Of a stretch of DNA of 64,000 nucleotides, positions 19,155 to 62,612 are shown one piece after another; positions within the stretch are counted from its first letter, which is position 1, and each line of letters starts with the position of its first letter. Location of the stretch: NCBI GenBank assembly GCA_031316155.1, contig JALDRB010000001.1, positions 62,001 to 126,000 on the forward strand, read 5' to 3'. The position numbers were made by a program, and so were the translations under genes. The notes beneath the pieces are model-generated. The model made no database searches, was not told the DNA's origin, and worked only from the letters and a program-made list of their open reading frames with translations. Source of the stretch: Candidatus Scalindua sp. GTDB taxonomy: Bacteria; Planctomycetota; Brocadiia; Brocadiales; Scalinduaceae.

Positions 19155-20842
19155 ATGCTGACAGCAAAAATGAAATCACTGATCAATCAGCTCTGGAACA
19201 ACTTCTGGAGCGGTGGAATTGCAAATCCCCTGACGGCAATTGAACAGATATCGTATCTTTTGTTTATGCGAAGGCTTGACGAGCTGGATCTGAAGCTGAA
19301 GAGAGATGCGGAATGGACCGGCGAGAAATACACATCGATCTTCGACGGTACATTTCTGTCGCCTCTTACGAATGAGAAGATTGACAAACAGACACTCCGC
19401 TGGAGCCATTTCAAACAGCTCGAAGGCGGAGAGATGCTCACTCAGGTACAGACCAGAGCCTTTCCCTTTATCAAACAGGTGAACGGCAAAGAGAGTGTGT
19501 TTGCAAAATACATGGCTGATGCCGTCTTTATCATCCCCAAACCGTCACTCCTGGTTGAGGCCGTAACCATTATTGACGCACTGTACGCGGAGATTGAAAA
19601 ACAGACACAAGCCGGACAGACATTTCATGATACGCAGGGAGACATGTACGAATTTCTGCTCTCAGAGATCTCCTCATCGGGCAAGAACGGGCAGTTCCGC
19701 ACACCGAGGCATATCATCAAACTCATGTGTGAACTGGCAAGCCCGAAGATCGGCGAGACGATCGGTGATCCCGCCTGCGGCACCGGAGGATTTCTCCTCG
19801 GCGCCTATCACTATATCCTGACCACCCATACCAGTAAAAAACTGATCACAAAGGATGAAGACGGTTTTGAGCGTGGGTTTGGTGATAAGCTTACCGATGA
19901 ACGGTTGTGGACGGCCATCAGGGAGAAGACCTTCTTCGGGTACGACTTTGATACCACAATGGTTCGCATTGGTTTAATGAACCTCCTGCTCCACGGCATC
20001 ACCCACCCGAACATCGAACGCGTAGATACCCCTCAAAAAAATACAATGAGGACGATCAGTATGATGTTATCCTCGCCAATCCGCCCTTTAAGGGCAGTAT
20101 CGACAAAGGGGATATCAACGAAAACCTTTCTCTAAAGACGACGAAAACAGAACTCCTCTTCGTCAACCGCCTGATCAATTCACTGAAAGTAGGCGGGCGT
20201 GCTTCTGTGATCGTGCCTGACGGAGTGTTGTTCGGCTCTTCAAACGCACATAAGAGTTTGCGGAAGATGCTGATTGACGACTGTGAACTTCAGGGAGTGG
20301 TCTCCATGCCGTCAGGCGTATTCAAGCCCTACGCAGGAGTGAGCACCGCAATTCTGGTATTTGTGAAAGGCGGAACAACCGAACATGTCTGGTTCTATGA
20401 TATGCAGGCAGACGGCTATTCACTCGATGACAAACGCGACAGAATAGAAGCAAACGATCTTCCCGACATTGTCGAAAAATGGAAATGTAGGGGCACGATA
20501 CACCGTGCCCAGGAAGAAAAGGACCACCGCCGTGTCATCACGGGCAGAGACCCAGGGACCAGGAAGTCCCGCCCCCTTGTCATCCCGGGCGAAGACCCGG
20601 GATCCAGGAAGGATCGCACAGATGTCATTCCCGACTCCGATCGGGAATCCAGAAAAAACAAACACTTCTTCGTCCCGGTAAATGAAATCATCGACAACAA
20701 CTACGACCTGAGTATCAACCGGTATAAAAAAATCAACTACACCCCGCTAGAGTACGATAAGCCGGAGGTGATTTTGGGGAAAATTGAGAACCTTGAACAA
20801 TTGATTAATAAAGATTTAAATATTTTGAAAAAGATGAAATAA
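19155..20842 (+). CDS. hsdM: Type I N6-adenine methyltransferase subunit, one frameshift and REP insertions
   Basis: Modification subunit of the type I system. The N-terminal helical domain (KMKSLINQLWNNFWSGG) leads into the methylase with the AdoMet motif DPACGTGGFLLGAY. The frame breaks in a run of seven A at 20035-20041. In the next frame YDVILANPPFKGS gives the catalytic NPPF, and FVNRLINSLKVGGRASVIVP and FVPVNEIIDNNYDLSINRYK follow as in normal HsdM. Adding one A restores the whole protein of about 560 residues. Residues encoded by about 20487-20652 are not HsdM sequence but translated REP palindromes inserted in frame. The stop overlaps the hsdS start (TAATG). ATG 19155 has GAGGAG upstream. 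Confidence 0.9.
20487..20652 (+). repeat. REP-like palindromes inserted in frame inside hsdM
   Basis: One palindrome GGGCACGATACACCGTGCCC is followed by three tandem units of the type GTCAT-core-ATCCAGG, beginning at 20533, 20579 and 20634. The middle unit has a perfect core (CCCGGGCGAAGACCCGGG). Translation stays open and adds about 55 residues rich in Arg, Asp and Pro between the methylase core and the conserved NNYDLSINRY segment. Confidence 0.85.
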
Positions 20843-22029
20843 TGAGCATAATTTGTCTTAAAGATGTCATAGCAAAACTTGAAAGTGGCTCACGGCCTAA
20901 AGGAGGAGCGTCTACTGTTGAGGGGATTCCCAGCTTAGGGGCTGAGCATTTAAGTTATGAAGGCCGTATTGTTTTTGATAAACCTAAATATGTAGCTCAG
21001 AATTTTTTTGACCAGTTGAGTTCAGGAATTTTAAAAGACCAGGATGTATTGATTGTCAAAGATGGAGCAACTACGGGAAAGGTTGCTATTTGGATGTCTG
21101 AGTTTGAAAAGGCATGTATTAATGAGCATGTTTTTAGAATTGAAATTGATTCCGACAAGGCATTGCCAAAATATATTTTTTATTTTCTGATATCATCATA
21201 TGGCAACAACCAGGTTTTAAAAGATTTTCGAGGTGCTACCGTGGGTGGCATCTCCAGGTCTTTTGCAGATAAAGTAAGGATGTATTTACCGTCATTGTCC
21301 GACCAAAAACAAATCGTCCAAATCCTCGACACAGCCGAAACCCTCCGCCAGAAACGCAGAGAACAGATCAAACTTCTCGATGATTATCTTAAATCTGTAT
21401 TTTTCGAAATGTTCGGCGATCCCAGGGTGAAGACTCGATGGGATATGATTGATTTTGGTAAAGTTATTGATATTTTGACTGATTATCATGCTAATGGTAG
21501 CTATGAGATATTGCGTAACCACGTTGAATTAAAGTCAACACCTGACTATGCCTTAATGGTGAGAACAACTGATCTGGAAAATAATAATTTTACAGATGAT
21601 GTTAAATATATTTCAAAAGAGGCTTATGAATTCCTAGAAAAATCAAAAGTCTATGGAGGTGAAATTATTATAAATAAGATAGGAAGTGCTGGCAATGTAT
21701 ATCTAATGCCACACCTTAATAAACCTGTTTCGTTAGGTATGCCCTTTTTGCTTCGTTTCAATGAGTTTGCCAATACGATATTTATTTATCATTTATTAAC
21801 CTCTGAATATGGGAAGTGCATTATTGATTCGAAAGTTAAGGGTGCTGTAACAAAAACTATTCGAAAAGATGCAATCAGAAGCTTAAGAATTCCATTACCC
21901 CCAATTGGATTACAAAACAAATTTGCCTCAATCGTTGAGCTGGCCGAACAAACAAAACAAAAAATGCACGAGTCATTAGACGAAATGAATAACCACTTCA
22001 ACGCTCTTATGCAGAGGTATTTTGGATGA
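20842..22029 (+). CDS. hsdS: Type I specificity subunit
   Basis: DNA-recognition subunit of the type I system, 395 residues. Two target recognition domains are each followed by a conserved helical spacer. The first is residues about 1-150 with its spacer at LSDQKQIVQILDTAETLRQK; the second is about 195-345 with its spacer at PPIGLQNKFASIVELAEQTK and onward. The two halves would recognise the two parts of a split target. It overlaps hsdM by one base, so the two are translationally coupled. The last 25 codons (KQKM...NALMQRYF) recur twice more downstream as remnants near 26000 and 26750, pointing to past hsdS duplication or shuffling. Confidence 0.93.
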   Translation: MSIICLKDVIAKLESGSRPKGGASTVEGIPSLGAEHLSYEGRIVFDKPKYVAQNFFDQLSSGILKDQDVLIVKDGATTGKVAIWMSEFEKACINEHVFRIEIDSDKALPKYIFYFLISSYGNNQVLKDFRGATVGGISRSFADKVRMYLPSLSDQKQIVQILDTAETLRQKRREQIKLLDDYLKSVFFEMFGDPRVKTRWDMIDFGKVIDILTDYHANGSYEILRNHVELKSTPDYALMVRTTDLENNNFTDDVKYISKEAYEFLEKSKVYGGEIIINKIGSAGNVYLMPHLNKPVSLGMPFLLRFNEFANTIFIYHLLTSEYGKCIIDSKVKGAVTKTIRKDAIRSLRIPLPPIGLQNKFASIVELAEQTKQKMHESLDEMNNHFNALMQRYFG

Positions 22030-22057: not shown

Positions 22058-23660
22058 ATGGATATTATTATGATAAATAAAATATTTATTCAGAACTATA
22101 AGATTTTTGATCAGTTTAATTTAAGTATGAATAGTGGCTTAAATATTATTGTTGGTGATAATGAAGTTGGCAAATCAACAATTCTTGAGGCGATTAATTT
22201 AGTTTTAACAAAAAGACTTAACGGGAAAATGATTGAAAATGAATTATCCCCTTATCTCTTTAATAGGAACGCAGTTAAAGAGTATATTAAATCTATAATA
22301 GAAGGAAAACCTACTCAATTACCAGAAATTATTATTGAACTTTATCTTGATGATAATTCAGCGCTTGAATCTTTACGGGGAAGCATGAATTCCAAAAGAG
22401 AAGATGCTATTGGTATAAAATTAGAAATTGTCTTTGATGAAGATTATAATGAAGAATACGAGAATCTTATCAAAGATAAGAAAGTACAATTAATACCTGC
22501 CGAATACTATAAGGTTCAATGGTATTCTTTTGCCAATAATGCAATTACCTTAAGAAGCTTGCCTGTCCGCCTCTCATATATTGACACAACAACAATACGC
22601 CTGGAAAGTGGTGCTGATTATTATCTTCAAGATATTATTAAGACAGATCTTGATGCGAAAGAAAGGGTAGAGCTTAATATTGCTTATCGAGATTTAAAAG
22701 AGGTGTTTTCTGAACAAAAATCAATTAAGAGCATTAATCAAAAGCTAACTAATAAGAAAGGCGCTATTACAGATAAAGATCTTTCTATTTCAATAGATAT
22801 ATCCCAAAAATCAAACTGGGAAACCCACCTGATTCCACATCTTGATGAGTTACCTTTCCAGCTTATTGGTAAAGGAGAACAAAATGCCTTAAAAATAATG
22901 CTTGCGCTTGAACGTAAGGCGGATGAATCAAACATAATATTAATTGAAGAACCAGAGAATCATTTGTCTTTTTCCTCAATGAATACTCTTGTTTCAAAAA
23001 TTAGAGATAAATGTGAGGGTAAGCAAATAATAACGACAACTCACAGTACTTATGTTCTCAATAAACTTGGGCTTGAACATCTTCTTTTGCTACATGATAC
23101 TAAGATAACTACTTTAAAAAATTTACCTAGTGATACTCAAAACTATTTCAAGAAGTTATCCGGATACGATACACTTAGGCTTGTTCTTGCTAAGAAAGCA
23201 ATATTGGTAGAGGGTCCCTCAGATGAGTTGATTGTACAGAAAGCTTTTTTGTTAAAACATGAAAAACTTCCTATCGAGGCAGGGACGGATGTAATAAACG
23301 TTCAAGGATTGTCGTTTGCTAGATTTCTTGATATTGCAAAAGAGTTAGGAAAAAAAGTTGTTGTTGTGACTGACAATGATGGCGATTACAAAAACAAGGT
23401 GGATAAAAAATATAATGATTATCAAGGTTGTTCGAATATTATGATCTGTAGATCAGATAATGATTGTGCCCCAACGCTTGAACCGCAGATTGTAGAATGT
23501 AATGAACTGACAGTTTTGAATAAAATCTTTAATACAGATTTTGATAAAAAAGATTTAATAAAAAAATATGAAAAAGAACAAAACAGAGTGTGCTTTGAAA
23601 ATATTTGAGACAAAAGAAGATATTAAATTTCCTCAATATATTGAAAATGCTATTAAATAA
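22058..23660 (+). CDS. OLD-family AAA ATPase/TOPRIM nuclease, GajA-like, frameshift near the 3' end
   Basis: Overcoming-lysogenization-defect type nuclease as in the Gabija defence system. The ATPase domain has Walker A VGDNEVGKST (about 32-41) and Walker B IILIEEPENHLSF (about 293-305), with the split hallmark GKGEQNALKIMLALE between them. The TOPRIM domain has Glu385 in VEGPSDELIV and the acidic cluster TDNDGDY at 438-444. The open frame stops at 23608. The alternative frame continues MKKNKTECALKIFE then DIKFPQYIENAIK, the usual OLD C-terminus, ending at 23660. Deleting one A from a run of seven at 23560-23566 joins them. It is followed by an overlapping UvrD-like helicase, the Gabija arrangement. 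GajA proper is slightly longer (about 580 residues). Confidence 0.85.
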
Positions 23661-24669
23661 AAACAAAGTAATAATAGCTTGTGCAGGATCGGGTAAAACA
23701 ACTAGTATTGTTAGAGATGCACTTAAAATAAAAGATCAAAGAGTGCTTGTTACTACTTATACAAATGAAAACTTGGATCAAATTAAAGCAATTTTTATTG
23801 AAGAAGCTGGTTGTATTCCTTCTAATATTACCGTTCAGTCGTGGTTTAGCTTTCTCCTACAGGAGGGTATACGCCCATATCAAAATTACATAACTGACAA
23901 AAAAAGGGTGCAATCGATTTTATTCCAAGCAAAACATTCACGGTATCATAGAAAAGATAATTACTTGACGAAATCAAATTTCATATATAGCAATAAGGTT
24001 TCAGAATTTGTATACGAATGCGATAGAAAAACCGAGGGGTTAGTTACTAATCGGCTTGAAAAGATTTATGATTATATTTTTATAGATGAACTGCAAGACT
24101 TTGCTGGTTATGATTTGAACTTGTTGGAAATATATTTTAATTCACGAATAAATGTTATTATTGTTGGAGATCCAAGGCAAGCAACATATAGCACTAACAA
24201 TGCACAAAAAAACAGACAACACAGAAGAAGTAATATTTATTCATGGGTAAAAGGGAAAGAAGATGAACTAACAACTCAAGAGATAAATGATTGTTATAGA
24301 TGTAATCAGCGTATATGTGATTTTGCCAATAAATTATTTCCTGATTTGCCACAAGCTGTTTCAAAAAATAAAAGCATAACAGGTCATGACGGAATATTTT
24401 GCATACATAATTGTGAGGTGAGAAGTTATATTGATACATACAACCCAACAATTCTTAAGTATAATAAAAGGGCAGATACTTTAGGTTTCTACGCACTTAA
24501 TATCGGACTGGCAAAAGGAAGAACATTCAATAGAGTTTTAATTTTCCCTACACAACCAATGCTTAATTATTTGAAAACAGACGATCTATCAAAGGTTGGT
24601 GATAAGCACAAATTATATGTTGCTGTTACAAGAGCAAAATACAGCGCAACTTTTGTAAAGGGGGAGTGA
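23647..24669 (+). CDS. Small UvrD/Rep-like helicase, GajB-like partner of the OLD nuclease
   Basis: A superfamily 1 helicase of 340 residues. Walker A is IIACAGSGKTTS (about 9-20), motif II is FIDELQDFAGYDL, motif III is VGDPRQATYST, and the C-terminal motif VI is LYVAVTRAKYSATFV. The start was placed at ATG 23647 because MLLNKNKVIIACAGSGKT is the natural N-terminus. This overlaps the repaired end of the OLD gene by 14 bases, a sign of coupled translation. The family partner GajB (about 490 residues) is longer, so this is a compact version. Together the pair is best read as a Gabija-like antiphage module. Confidence 0.85.
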   Translation: MLLNKNKVIIACAGSGKTTSIVRDALKIKDQRVLVTTYTNENLDQIKAIFIEEAGCIPSNITVQSWFSFLLQEGIRPYQNYITDKKRVQSILFQAKHSRYHRKDNYLTKSNFIYSNKVSEFVYECDRKTEGLVTNRLEKIYDYIFIDELQDFAGYDLNLLEIYFNSRINVIIVGDPRQATYSTNNAQKNRQHRRSNIYSWVKGKEDELTTQEINDCYRCNQRICDFANKLFPDLPQAVSKNKSITGHDGIFCIHNCEVRSYIDTYNPTILKYNKRADTLGFYALNIGLAKGRTFNRVLIFPTQPMLNYLKTDDLSKVGDKHKLYVAVTRAKYSATFVKGE

Positions 24670-24977
24670 AACATGAATAGGTATTTGTTATTCAATTAAG
24701 GAGAGGAAGAGAGTCAAACCTAATCTATTGACAATTGACTCAATCTATCATGTCTTCTTTTTATAGAAAAATCTTTCCAATACAAGTAAATCCTTTGCTT
24801 ACAAAGAAGGAAGATCAGGATCATCTTAACGATGATGGTTTATAAATGGAATACGTAGCTTTATATTATCTAGAGGTTTCTGTTCCTTTCAATTCTTGAC
24901 AACTCATTCAAACGGACGCGTGAAACGAATTGCTTAACTTAAGTAAGTCGTTCTATCAGGAGGTAATAACAAAATAG
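24670..24977 (+). other. Intergenic region before the deaminase
   Basis: AT-rich sequence of 308 bases without a convincing open frame. CAGGAGGTAAT at 24957-24967 is the ribosome binding site of the lipoprotein-type reading frame starting at 24978. A TTGACA at about 24895 may be a -35 box, without a clear -10. Confidence 0.4.
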
Positions 24978-25640
24978 ATGAACCTGAAAAACATCACTCA
25001 TATTTTACTCCTTGGAATATTAGCGATATATTTTAGTTCTTGTGCAATATAAGGAACCGACACTTCATCTATTTCCAGGCATAATGTTCCTGAAAGGGAG
25101 ACATTAACAAACCGGGAGCAACATCAGGACCATAAATATTTCATGAAGCGGGCTATTTTGATGGCAAAAAGAGCTCGAGAGTTTCCATTCGGTGCTGTAA
25201 TTGTCAGGCGTCAGACTGGTGAGATTGTTTCCGAGGGATTTAACCGTTCACGAAACAGCCCAACCTTTCACGCTGAAATCGATGCAATTAACCGTTGCGC
25301 AAAAACTCACCCTGTAATCAATTGGAAAGAACTGGATTTATATACAACTGCTGAACCTTGTGCCATGTGCCAGAGTGCAATCGAATGGTCCGGAATTTCA
25401 AATGTTTATTATGGAAGTTCGATTCCATTTTTGAAAAATAATGGATGGTGGCAAATCGATATTCGAGCGGAAGAGGTGGCACGACGCACACCCTTCAGAA
25501 AAACTCGTGTTGTCGGCGCTATTTTAGAAGAAGAGTGTAATCTGCTGTATAAAAAGCTTACAGTAGCGAAATCTATAAATAAAAGGGTTGGACAAATGGG
25601 GCAGTTGTTTCTATTATCGAGTCGTTTATACAACATTTAA
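24978..25640 (+). pseudogene. Lipoprotein-type nucleoside/cytidine deaminase, interrupted by a stop after the lipobox
   Basis: A single reading frame begins at ATG 24978 behind AGGAGG. It encodes a signal peptide MNLKNITHILLLGILAIYF with lipobox FSSC, hits TAA at 25050-25052, and continues without another stop through a spacer into a complete zinc deaminase domain. That domain (from 25143, 165 residues) has the proton shuttle and ligand motif FHAEIDAIN and the zinc-binding PCAMCQSAIEW, as in the cytidine/guanine/tRNA-adenosine deaminase superfamily. Export of a deaminase would be unusual. If the TAA is real, only the cytoplasmic form from the internal ATG at 25143 could be made, and no ribosome binding site is evident there. 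The substrate cannot be assigned. Confidence 0.75.
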
Positions 25641-25832: not shown

Positions 25833-26102
25833 AGGATGTCATTTTTGCAAAAGATATTGGAGGAGAAGGCGCCTGAATCAGCTCAAAAGAATATAAATCT
25901 TGGAATATTACGGAACCTTGAGATACCAGTTCCGTCTATTAAATTACAAAACAAGTTTGTAGAAATAATTGAACAAGTCGAACGAACAAAACAAAAAATG
26001 CGCGTGTCTCTAAACGAAATGGACAACCAATTAAACGCCCTTATGCAGAGGTGTTTGGAAGAATTTTTATTTTCACAGGCTTTATTTAATGTGTTAAAAT
26101 GA
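25818..26102 (+). pseudogene. hsdS deletion remnant (start fused to the C-terminal end)
   Basis: The segment opens MRLLKDVIFAKD, like the HsdS N-terminus (compare LKDVIAKL in the intact gene). It then changes frame to the HsdS end: NLGILRNLEIPVPSIKLQNK, FVEIIEQVERTKQKM, NALMQRC. The recognition domains are gone. It closely matches the 3' end of the intact hsdS at 21900-22029, so it derives from a related specificity gene. It could act as a source of sequence for recombination but does not encode a working subunit. Confidence 0.75.
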
Positions 26103-26373: not shown

Positions 26374-26707
26374 GTGATTCGACTTTATACAGATGAAGAC
26401 GTACACAAAAAAGTATCCGTAGCACTACGTACCCGAGGATATGATGTAGTCAGCGTACATGATAGTAAGAATTGGGGTCTCTGATTTACAACAACTGGAA
26501 TACGCCGCATCTCAGAAAAGAGCAATTTTTACGTTCAACACAGGTGACTTTGTAAGATTACATAAAGATTACCTTAGCAACAAGAAAAGCCATTTTGGTA
26601 TTATTCTCTCGAAACAAATTCCTCTTAAAGAAACCATTAATCATCTCATATCTTTTCTCTACAATCATTCATCAGAACAATTGAAAGACAATATTTTCTG
26701 GATATAG
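26374..26707 (+). pseudogene. DUF5615 (Mut7-C/PIN-like) toxin, frameshifted
   Basis: It starts at GTG directly after the antitoxin stop: VIRLYTDEDVHKKVSVALRT and RGYDVVSVHDSKNWGL, then TGA. The next frame continues SDLQQLEYAASQKRAIFTFN, TGDFVRLHKDYLS and ends DNIFWI, the normal body of DUF5615 PIN-like ribonucleases (acidic residues in LYTDED and NTGDF). The break at about 26475-26482 fits loss of one CT from a CTCTCT run. Both members of this toxin-antitoxin pair are therefore broken in the same way. Confidence 0.8.
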
Positions 26708-26795
26708 AAAACAGGTCGAAAAGGCAAAACAAAAAATGCGCGCGTCATTAAACGAAATAGACAACCACTTCAACGCCCTTATGCAGAGGTATTTT
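26708..26795 (+). pseudogene. hsdS 3' end remnant, third copy
   Basis: A short run encodes QVEKAKQKMRASLNEIDNHF then NALMQRYF, nearly the same as the last 25 codons of the intact hsdS. It follows the DUF5615 stop without its own start and runs straight into the RAYT relic. It marks an old duplication endpoint. Confidence 0.75.
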
Positions 26796-27231: not shown

Positions 27232-28020
27232 ATGTTTAAATTTTATAAGAAGCTAGGGATAAAGATTAAAAAGATAAGAGAAAAGTTAGACTTGTCACAG
27301 GAAGCATTAGCAAAAAAACTAGGAGTAAGCAGGGTTGCTATTTCACAAATAGAAACCGGAGACAGGAAGATTAGCGCGGAAGAAATAGCCAAGCTTGCTA
27401 AGGTTTTCAATATTCCTACGGATGTTTTGTTAGATATAAAAAAAGATGTTGAGATTATATTTGAGAAAGCAGTGAAGAAATCAAAGAAGAAAAAGGACAT
27501 TAGAATTAGTGTCCCTCAGCGGAATTTGCAGAAATTTAAAGAGATATTAATTTATATCCTCGAAAAAGTTGGGTCAAAACCTAACATAGGAGAGACAGTA
27601 TTATATAAACTTCTTTATTTCATAGATTTTAATTTTTATGAGAAGTATGAAGAGCAGCTGATAGGGGCCACATATATAAAAAACCATCATGGGCCAACGC
27701 CTAAAGAATTTATAAAGATTGTAAAAGAGATGGAGGGTAAGGAATTGGTGAAAGTGCAGGATAAATATTTCCAATATCCACAGACAAAGTATCTGCCTTT
27801 AAGGAAATCTGATCTTACTCAGTTTAAGGCGCATGAAAAAGAAGTGATAGATGATGTATTGAATAGTTTATCAAACATGAACGCTTCCGAGATCAGCGAA
27901 TACTCTCATAATGATGTTCCATGGCAAACTACCGAGGATGGTGAAATTATTGAATATGAAGCAGTGTTTTATAGAACTCCGCCTTATTCAGTGAGAAATT
28001 ATAGTGAAAAAGATATTTAA
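27232..28020 (+). CDS. HTH-Panacea (DUF4065) antitoxin
   Basis: A protein of 262 residues. Residues about 8-65 are an XRE-type helix-turn-helix (IKKIREKLDLSQEALAKKLG then VSRVAISQIETGDR). Residues about 98-250 form the Panacea/DUF4065 domain (VGSKPNIGETVLYKLLYFID, ATYIKNHHGPTPKEF, SEYSHNDVPWQTTEDGE). Panacea domains are known antitoxin scaffolds that neutralise several unrelated toxins. A good ribosome binding site (AAAGGAGGAG) precedes the ATG. The gene overlaps the downstream toxin by 17 bases, and the HTH part probably represses the operon through the repeats at 27165-27200. Confidence 0.9.
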   Translation: MFKFYKKLGIKIKKIREKLDLSQEALAKKLGVSRVAISQIETGDRKISAEEIAKLAKVFNIPTDVLLDIKKDVEIIFEKAVKKSKKKKDIRISVPQRNLQKFKEILIYILEKVGSKPNIGETVLYKLLYFIDFNFYEKYEEQLIGATYIKNHHGPTPKEFIKIVKEMEGKELVKVQDKYFQYPQTKYLPLRKSDLTQFKAHEKEVIDDVLNSLSNMNASEISEYSHNDVPWQTTEDGEIIEYEAVFYRTPPYSVRNYSEKDI

Positions 28021-28384
28021 TGAGATACGAAAACTTGTTGAGTTTGAAAAAGACTTCAAAAGGCTAGCGAAGAGGTTTAAGACGCTTGATGATGATCTCA
28101 ATACTTTTATTGATAAACAGCTCATGATTACTCATAAATTGGGAATTGATAATAAGGGTGTAATTCCTATCTCTGGATTAGGGATCGAAGTTCCGAAGAT
28201 ATATAAGGCAAGAAAATTTGCCTGTAAAGCACTAAAAGGTAGTGGTGGAATGAGTGGCATAAGAATAATATATGCACATTATGAGAAAGAAGATGTTATT
28301 GAATTTATAGAGATTTATTTTAAGGGTGACAAGGAAAACGAGGATAGAAATCGAATTATAAAATATTATACTACTAACATTTAG
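28004..28384 (+). CDS. RelE/ParE-like toxin paired with the Panacea antitoxin
   Basis: A protein of 126 residues starting at GTG 28004 inside the end of the antitoxin gene. FEKDFKRLAKRFKTLDDDLN resembles the N-terminal helix of RelE/HigB-type toxins. The body ISGLGIEVPKIYKARKFACK, then SGIRIIYAHYEKEDVIEFIE and IYFKGDKENEDRNRI, follows the usual strand pattern (KAR, RIIY, IYFKG). Toxins of this superfamily cleave messenger RNA on the ribosome or poison gyrase; which applies here cannot be told. The overlap and shared promoter make the pairing convincing. Confidence 0.82.
   Translation: MKKIFNEIRKLVEFEKDFKRLAKRFKTLDDDLNTFIDKQLMITHKLGIDNKGVIPISGLGIEVPKIYKARKFACKALKGSGGMSGIRIIYAHYEKEDVIEFIEIYFKGDKENEDRNRIIKYYTTNI

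Positions 28385-60612: not shown

Positions 60613-62612
<2,000 letters not shown>

Follow-up and report, generated by a model that had tools for sequence, protein, structure and literature searches.

A lipoprotein-like leader and a zinc deaminase share one reading frame in the genome of a Candidatus Scalindua sp., with a single stop codon standing between them. Are these two parts of one gene and, if so, is the stop real? We addressed the question in a window of 64,000 nucleotides, this being the whole stretch of DNA that was analysed and the one to which all positions refer.

A leader, a stop and a spacer in one frame

The frame runs from 24978 to 25640 (+). It opens with a leader of lipoprotein type, is interrupted once by TAA and, past a short spacer, continues into a zinc deaminase. 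Its translation reads MNLKNITHILLLGILAIYFSSCAI-stop-GTDTSSIS...DHKYFMKRAI...HAE...EPCAMC..., with one internal stop. Translation and a match to Pfam family PF00383 thus confirmed the sequence-only reading, which had placed a signal peptide, a lipobox, a spacer and a full deaminase in one frame with a single TAA at 25050. The leader MNLKNITHILLLGILAIYFSSCAI (24978..25049, +) has 24 codons and is preceded by a Shine-Dalgarno-like AGGAGGT (24958..24964, +; a 7-base match found by script) located 13 nt before the ATG at 24978. As in the bacterial lipoproteins processed by signal peptidase II, it has a positive n-region and an uncharged hydrophobic stretch followed by S-S-C (residues 20-22), and it was recognized by a home-made rule for n-region, h-region and lipobox cysteine, drawn up once the leader was known. 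Unlike those lipoproteins, it does not run on into a mature protein, the single in-frame TAA (25050..25052, +) falling two codons past the codon of Cys22, and its lipobox-like FSSC carries Phe at -3, a position where Leu, Val or Ile are usual and Phe is atypical.

Could such a leader be there by chance? We estimated its rarity in a 464 kb sample of the host genome, including 400 kb beyond the window, with figures that are somewhat generous because the simple rule was drafted with this leader in view. Among the 423 ORFs of at least 120 aa in the sample, 7 start with a rule-positive leader and only the deaminase ORF has one within 70 codons upstream, whether in frame or in any frame; it is likewise the only one with an upstream leader set apart by a stop. 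When the 210 nt upstream were shuffled preserving dinucleotides, an in-frame leader appeared in 1 of 20,000 shuffles, and an in-frame leader together with a 5-base Shine-Dalgarno match in none of the 20,000. Leader-like stretches began at 13 of the 16,317 ATGs on both strands of the 464 kb, 9 of them in ORFs of at least 100 aa and 4 in short ORFs, and among these four only the leader upstream of the deaminase had a strong Shine-Dalgarno match. Since it is rare among ORFs, in shuffles and among ATGs with a Shine-Dalgarno sequence, the leader is probably real and not noise. That it belongs to the deaminase is a weaker proposition, which would follow from the shared frame, the nearness and the absence of another start; the agreement in frame is by itself a 1-in-3 coincidence, and 25 spacer codons with no further stop carry no information on the link.

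The spacer (25053..25127, +) has 25 codons and no canonical in-frame start codon. According to the start-codon list, the frame offers no ATG, GTG or TTG after the TAA until the internal ATG at 25143..25145 (+), the first canonical in-frame start past the stop, which encodes residue 31 of the post-stop frame and lies within the first helix of the domain (residues 27-38). Homology with the family begins at about residues 26-27 in most rows of the alignment, and AlphaFold2 (AF2) gave low pLDDT across the first 20 or so post-stop residues. In codon usage, about 93% of true coding windows outscore the spacer, and the spacer outscores about 76% of off-frame windows. Inspection of the upstream bases revealed no strong Shine-Dalgarno sequence before the ATG at 25143 or before an out-of-frame ATG at 25084. 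Because the full domain has no good start of its own, an interrupted gene fits better than a cytosolic one.

The deaminase domain

We assigned the post-stop part (25128..25640, +) to the CDA-fold zinc deaminases on the basis of its match to PF00383 (5.5e-25; 87.7 bits against a cut-off of 25), its conserved columns and its AF2 model. Numbering residues from 25053, the zinc and catalytic residues are His73 and Glu75 (about 25269-25277) and Cys103 and Cys106 (about 25359-25370); these four, invariant in the family and retained here, form the H-x-E and P-C-x-x-C motifs. In a comparison with 82 relatives (rows of at least 125 aa), the sequence keeps 27 of the 30 columns with at least 90% conservation and 21 of the 24 with at least 95%; only 2 of the 82 relatives keep fewer of the latter, suggesting a sequence somewhat unusual even aside from the stop. 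The model, built on a 52-row alignment that drew on 51 of the 80 scanned loci described below, has a mean pLDDT of 90 and resembles solved deaminases in foldseek comparisons (TM about 0.6-0.86), as predicted for the alpha/beta fold of the deaminase superfamily. With its catalytic residues complete and its conserved ones nearly so, the gene looks recently interrupted, and the domain would be either intact or freshly inactivated.

In a profile search of the PDB, the guanine deaminase of Bacillus scored best (1.1e-24), ahead of TadA, plant guanosine deaminase and yeast cytosine deaminase in that order; foldseek placed plant guanosine deaminase 7dc9 on top and also matched TadA. With TadA, the tRNA adenosine-34 deaminase, the domain shares the CDA fold, HAE and the PCxxC zinc site (foldseek 1e-12). 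It differs from TadA in the Trp after PCxxC (W112), invariant in the family and missing from the separate TadA-like ORF of 156 aa (L002) that the genome also has; the score against the TadA equivalog NF008113 was 64.4 bits, well under the cut-off of 150. With the guanine deaminase of Bacillus subtilis (1tiy/1wkq) and plant guanosine deaminase (7dbf/7dc9) it shares the EPCPMCxxAIxWA signature, but the match spans only profile positions 2-109 and the family has a G-W-x-Q-I-(D/N)-I stretch of its own, so that an identity as a GuaD-type guanine deaminase, taken from the best profile match, is suggestive only. Yeast cytosine deaminase, over positions 15-143 of the 152-position profile, gives about 1e-16 to 1e-19 for its group, a weaker match than that to guanine deaminase. 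The yeast enzyme carries HGE, as do most members of the family, whereas the window has HAE. As a guess, the putative substrate would be a purine base or nucleoside.

Two further candidates were rejected. The anti-phage dCTP deaminase model NF041025 gave 33.4 bits against a cut-off of 400. The MafB19-like polymorphic toxin deaminase (PF14437) reached 55.8 bits against a cut-off of 27, yet scored below PF00383, and the frame has no delivery domain, nor have the relatives a broadly common neighbour.

Relatives, their leaders and the origin of the gene

A scan of genome contigs yielded 589 pattern-matching stretches, of which 552 were relatives, and the best 80 of the 552 were kept (at least 80 loci). 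Adding L024-L029 brought the set to 86 sequences, 84 of which were classed and 83 placed in a tree with the window sequence; the tree omits L044 and L098, for which the script found no anchor, and L065, which shares a contig with L025. Among the 83 relatives, drawn from the best 80 of 552 plus L024-L029, 21 have a leader by a crude rule, a further 5 by eye (L024, L058, L085, L103 and L107, all rule-negative and called "leader?") and 57 none, a label that is not informative for L061 and L071, which begin at a contig end, or for L068, which has no start codon. One rule-positive case, L037, was overruled on account of its TTG start and its leaderless near relatives. A twin-arginine-like pattern is present in 16 of the 21 rule-positive leaders, and leader-bearing relatives occur in Streptomyces, several Pseudomonadota groups, Acidobacteriota, Myxococcota and others. 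The earlier view that an exported deaminase would be unusual was therefore too strong, 21-26 of 83 relatives having Tat- or Sec-like leaders. L024, L041, L090, L092, L094, L095 and L100-L108, all with such leaders, may represent an undescribed group of exported CDA-fold deaminases.

The closest relatives present a different aspect. All 12 in the starred clade of the window sequence (100/95), which come from Nitrospinota, Nitrospirota and Gammaproteobacteria of the methane-oxidiser type, are leaderless, as are further Nitrospirota relatives read by eye, whereas L041, on the next branch outside the clade (98/89), has a Tat-like leader. With both leader labels merged, the label changes at least 8 times on the tree, so leaders have been gained or lost repeatedly. 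The window's own rule found a lipobox leader in none of the 80 loci (best 80 of 552), and the search for homologues with an intact lipobox-deaminase fusion accordingly came back empty for the same 80; by eye, L091 (Myxococcota) is a near miss. The sequence-only reading would have been undone by homologues that always start at the internal ATG and have no signal peptide. The 12 leaderless relatives of the clade go part of the way, but the start Met of leaderless relatives lies a few residues upstream of the position of the internal ATG, and L041 has its Tat-like leader.

Relatives are thinly spread. At 1e-18 they were found in 6 of 392 genomes of the host phylum, its own included, and at 1e-22 in 1 of 297, 4 of 345 and 6 of 396 genomes of three other phyla, centre genomes included. 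Across 58 further genomes, taken as relatives from the host's own order, no match was better than E 1.1e-16; relatives in that order being so distant, the deaminase gene was probably acquired horizontally. On viral contigs, a single-protein query found no close relatives and a query with an alignment only 23 weak matches, and in phage and plasmid collections all matches were under 60% identity. At the DNA level, a comparison of the locus with 39 genomes returned only scattered repeats, with no match for the leader region.

The surrounding locus and the competing explanations

The host genome contains a hydrazine synthase alpha domain (1.8e-22, above the cut-off; found in 0 of 14 control genomes), and the host, a member of the Planctomycetota, is therefore most likely an anammox bacterium. 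Upstream of the deaminase lie a type I HsdM (split), an HsdS and a Gabija pair, GajA at 22058-23608 (+; PADLOC 2.6e-198) and GajB at 23605-24669 (+; PADLOC 1.1e-111); the GajB ORF has a TTG start and overlaps GajA by 4 nt. Downstream is a 3'-terminal fragment of HsdS (25836..26102, +; Pfam/PADLOC) that overlaps one copy of a 134-nt direct repeat of the HsdS tail. The three copies of this repeat (21889-22022, 25923-26056 and 26661-26794) flank the Gabija-deaminase stretch, which points to the HsdS tail as a site of insertion or duplication. With the HsdM break, the HsdS fragment and these repeats, the neighbours of the deaminase look mobile or decaying. There is no conserved gene neighbourhood: the deaminase aside, groups of similar neighbouring ORFs hold at most 6 of the 80 loci (best 80 of 552), except for one further group of 11 loci whose example ORF overlaps the deaminase match. 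Since no neighbour is broadly common to the relatives, nothing ties the deaminase to defence.

Other frames in the window are also broken. The NAD-dependent DNA ligase LigA (60613-62612) is divided into two overlapping frames, with the split near 61341-61356. LigA is essential in bacteria. Because of this, and because the ligase adenylation domain has no match in the genome outside these two pieces, the split is likely an assembly error. HsdM (19155-20842) changes frame beside a run of seven A (about 20035) and has a 45-nt tandem repeat in its 3' part (20533-20633). The LigA split makes an error at the TAA more probable as well, although the TAA is an in-frame stop and not a frame shift. With HsdM broken too, either decay or assembly error may have produced the stop.

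The explanation that we tentatively prefer, giving it not quite even chances, is that of an interrupted gene, a horizontally acquired and formerly lipid-anchored deaminase now cut by a nonsense codon. The gene would have come by horizontal acquisition into an accessory region, rich in defence genes, of its anammox host. Its ancestral product would have carried a signal peptide, complete with lipobox-like cysteine, ahead of a short, flexible spacer and a stand-alone zinc domain of the TadA/guanine deaminase type. A single nonsense codon just past the lipobox would halt translation after 24 residues and, as written, neither a lipoprotein nor a full-length enzyme would be produced. In favour of this explanation we counted the single frame with its one TAA, the rarity of the leader, the missing start codon in the spacer, the conserved columns that are kept, the thin spread of relatives, the mobile or decaying look of the neighbours and the exported-looking members of the family, including L041 beside the clade of the window sequence. 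Against it we counted the leaderless clade, the lack of lipobox leaders in the best 80 of 552 loci, the Phe at -3, the option that leader and domain are chance neighbours, with a spacer whose codon usage lies between coding and off-frame values, the split LigA, which suggests assembly errors, and the lost conserved columns. If the TAA were instead a base-calling or assembly error, which we regard as rather unlikely, the cell would make an intact, lipid-anchored extracytoplasmic deaminase. The otherwise intact domain and the frame splits in the single LigA and in HsdM beside its A7 run favour this, but the latter are frame shifts and the TAA an in-frame stop, that is, another type of error, and the region also has real-looking fragments such as the HsdS tail.

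It is unlikely that the deaminase is, or was, a cytosolic enzyme like its nearest relatives, with the leader a remnant of another gene or a coincidence. Its start would then be the ATG at 25143, some non-canonical codon or, followed by a change of frame, the out-of-frame ATG at 25084. Such an enzyme would agree with its 12 leaderless clade relatives, with a spacer whose codon usage is not clearly coding and with the frame-changing breaks elsewhere in the window. However, a start at 25143 would drop the beginning of helix 1, including residues aligned with the conserved stretch before M31, neither ATG has a strong Shine-Dalgarno sequence, and the leader is too rare for chance beside an ORF. Finally, reading through the TAA would give a little lipid-anchored deaminase plus a 24-residue peptide. 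We consider this very improbable: its sole argument is the frame open on both sides of the TAA together with the intact domain, which is not positive evidence, while no relative among the best 80 of 552 and L024-L029 has the same stop, and elsewhere the family is leaderless or plainly open. TAA is, besides, the stop codon least often recoded. Of the three options originally proposed for the stop (recent, read-through or error), the first and the last thus became our two leading explanations.

Taken alone, the locus is a probable broken gene, and the leader-bearing relatives are of more interest. It is a doubtful but larger proposition that stand-alone CDA-fold deaminases form a widespread, undescribed family that works outside the cytoplasm (Tat/Sec export, in many phyla) and that the host has, or recently had, a lipid-anchored form deaminating extracytoplasmic purines or nucleosides; if true, ammonium would be released next to an ammonium-oxidising cell. 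Should the leader-bearing relatives act outside the cytoplasm, bases or nucleosides would be deaminated extracellularly by a route so far unrecognised. Titles and abstract openings of the open-access literature yielded no description of CDA-fold deaminases of this type that are exported and act on bases or nucleosides, and the excerpt of PMC8289736 describes none; the deaminase-type toxins and the animal adenosine deaminases that such titles and abstracts do mention, though secreted, belong to other families. Fusions of signal peptides to deaminases in draft genomes need checking against assembly errors.

Further downstream, a protein with a helix-turn-helix and a SocA/Panacea antitoxin-like region (27232-28020) is followed by one of 126 aa with no Pfam match at E 0.01, and the pair (27232-28384) is a possible toxin-antitoxin system.
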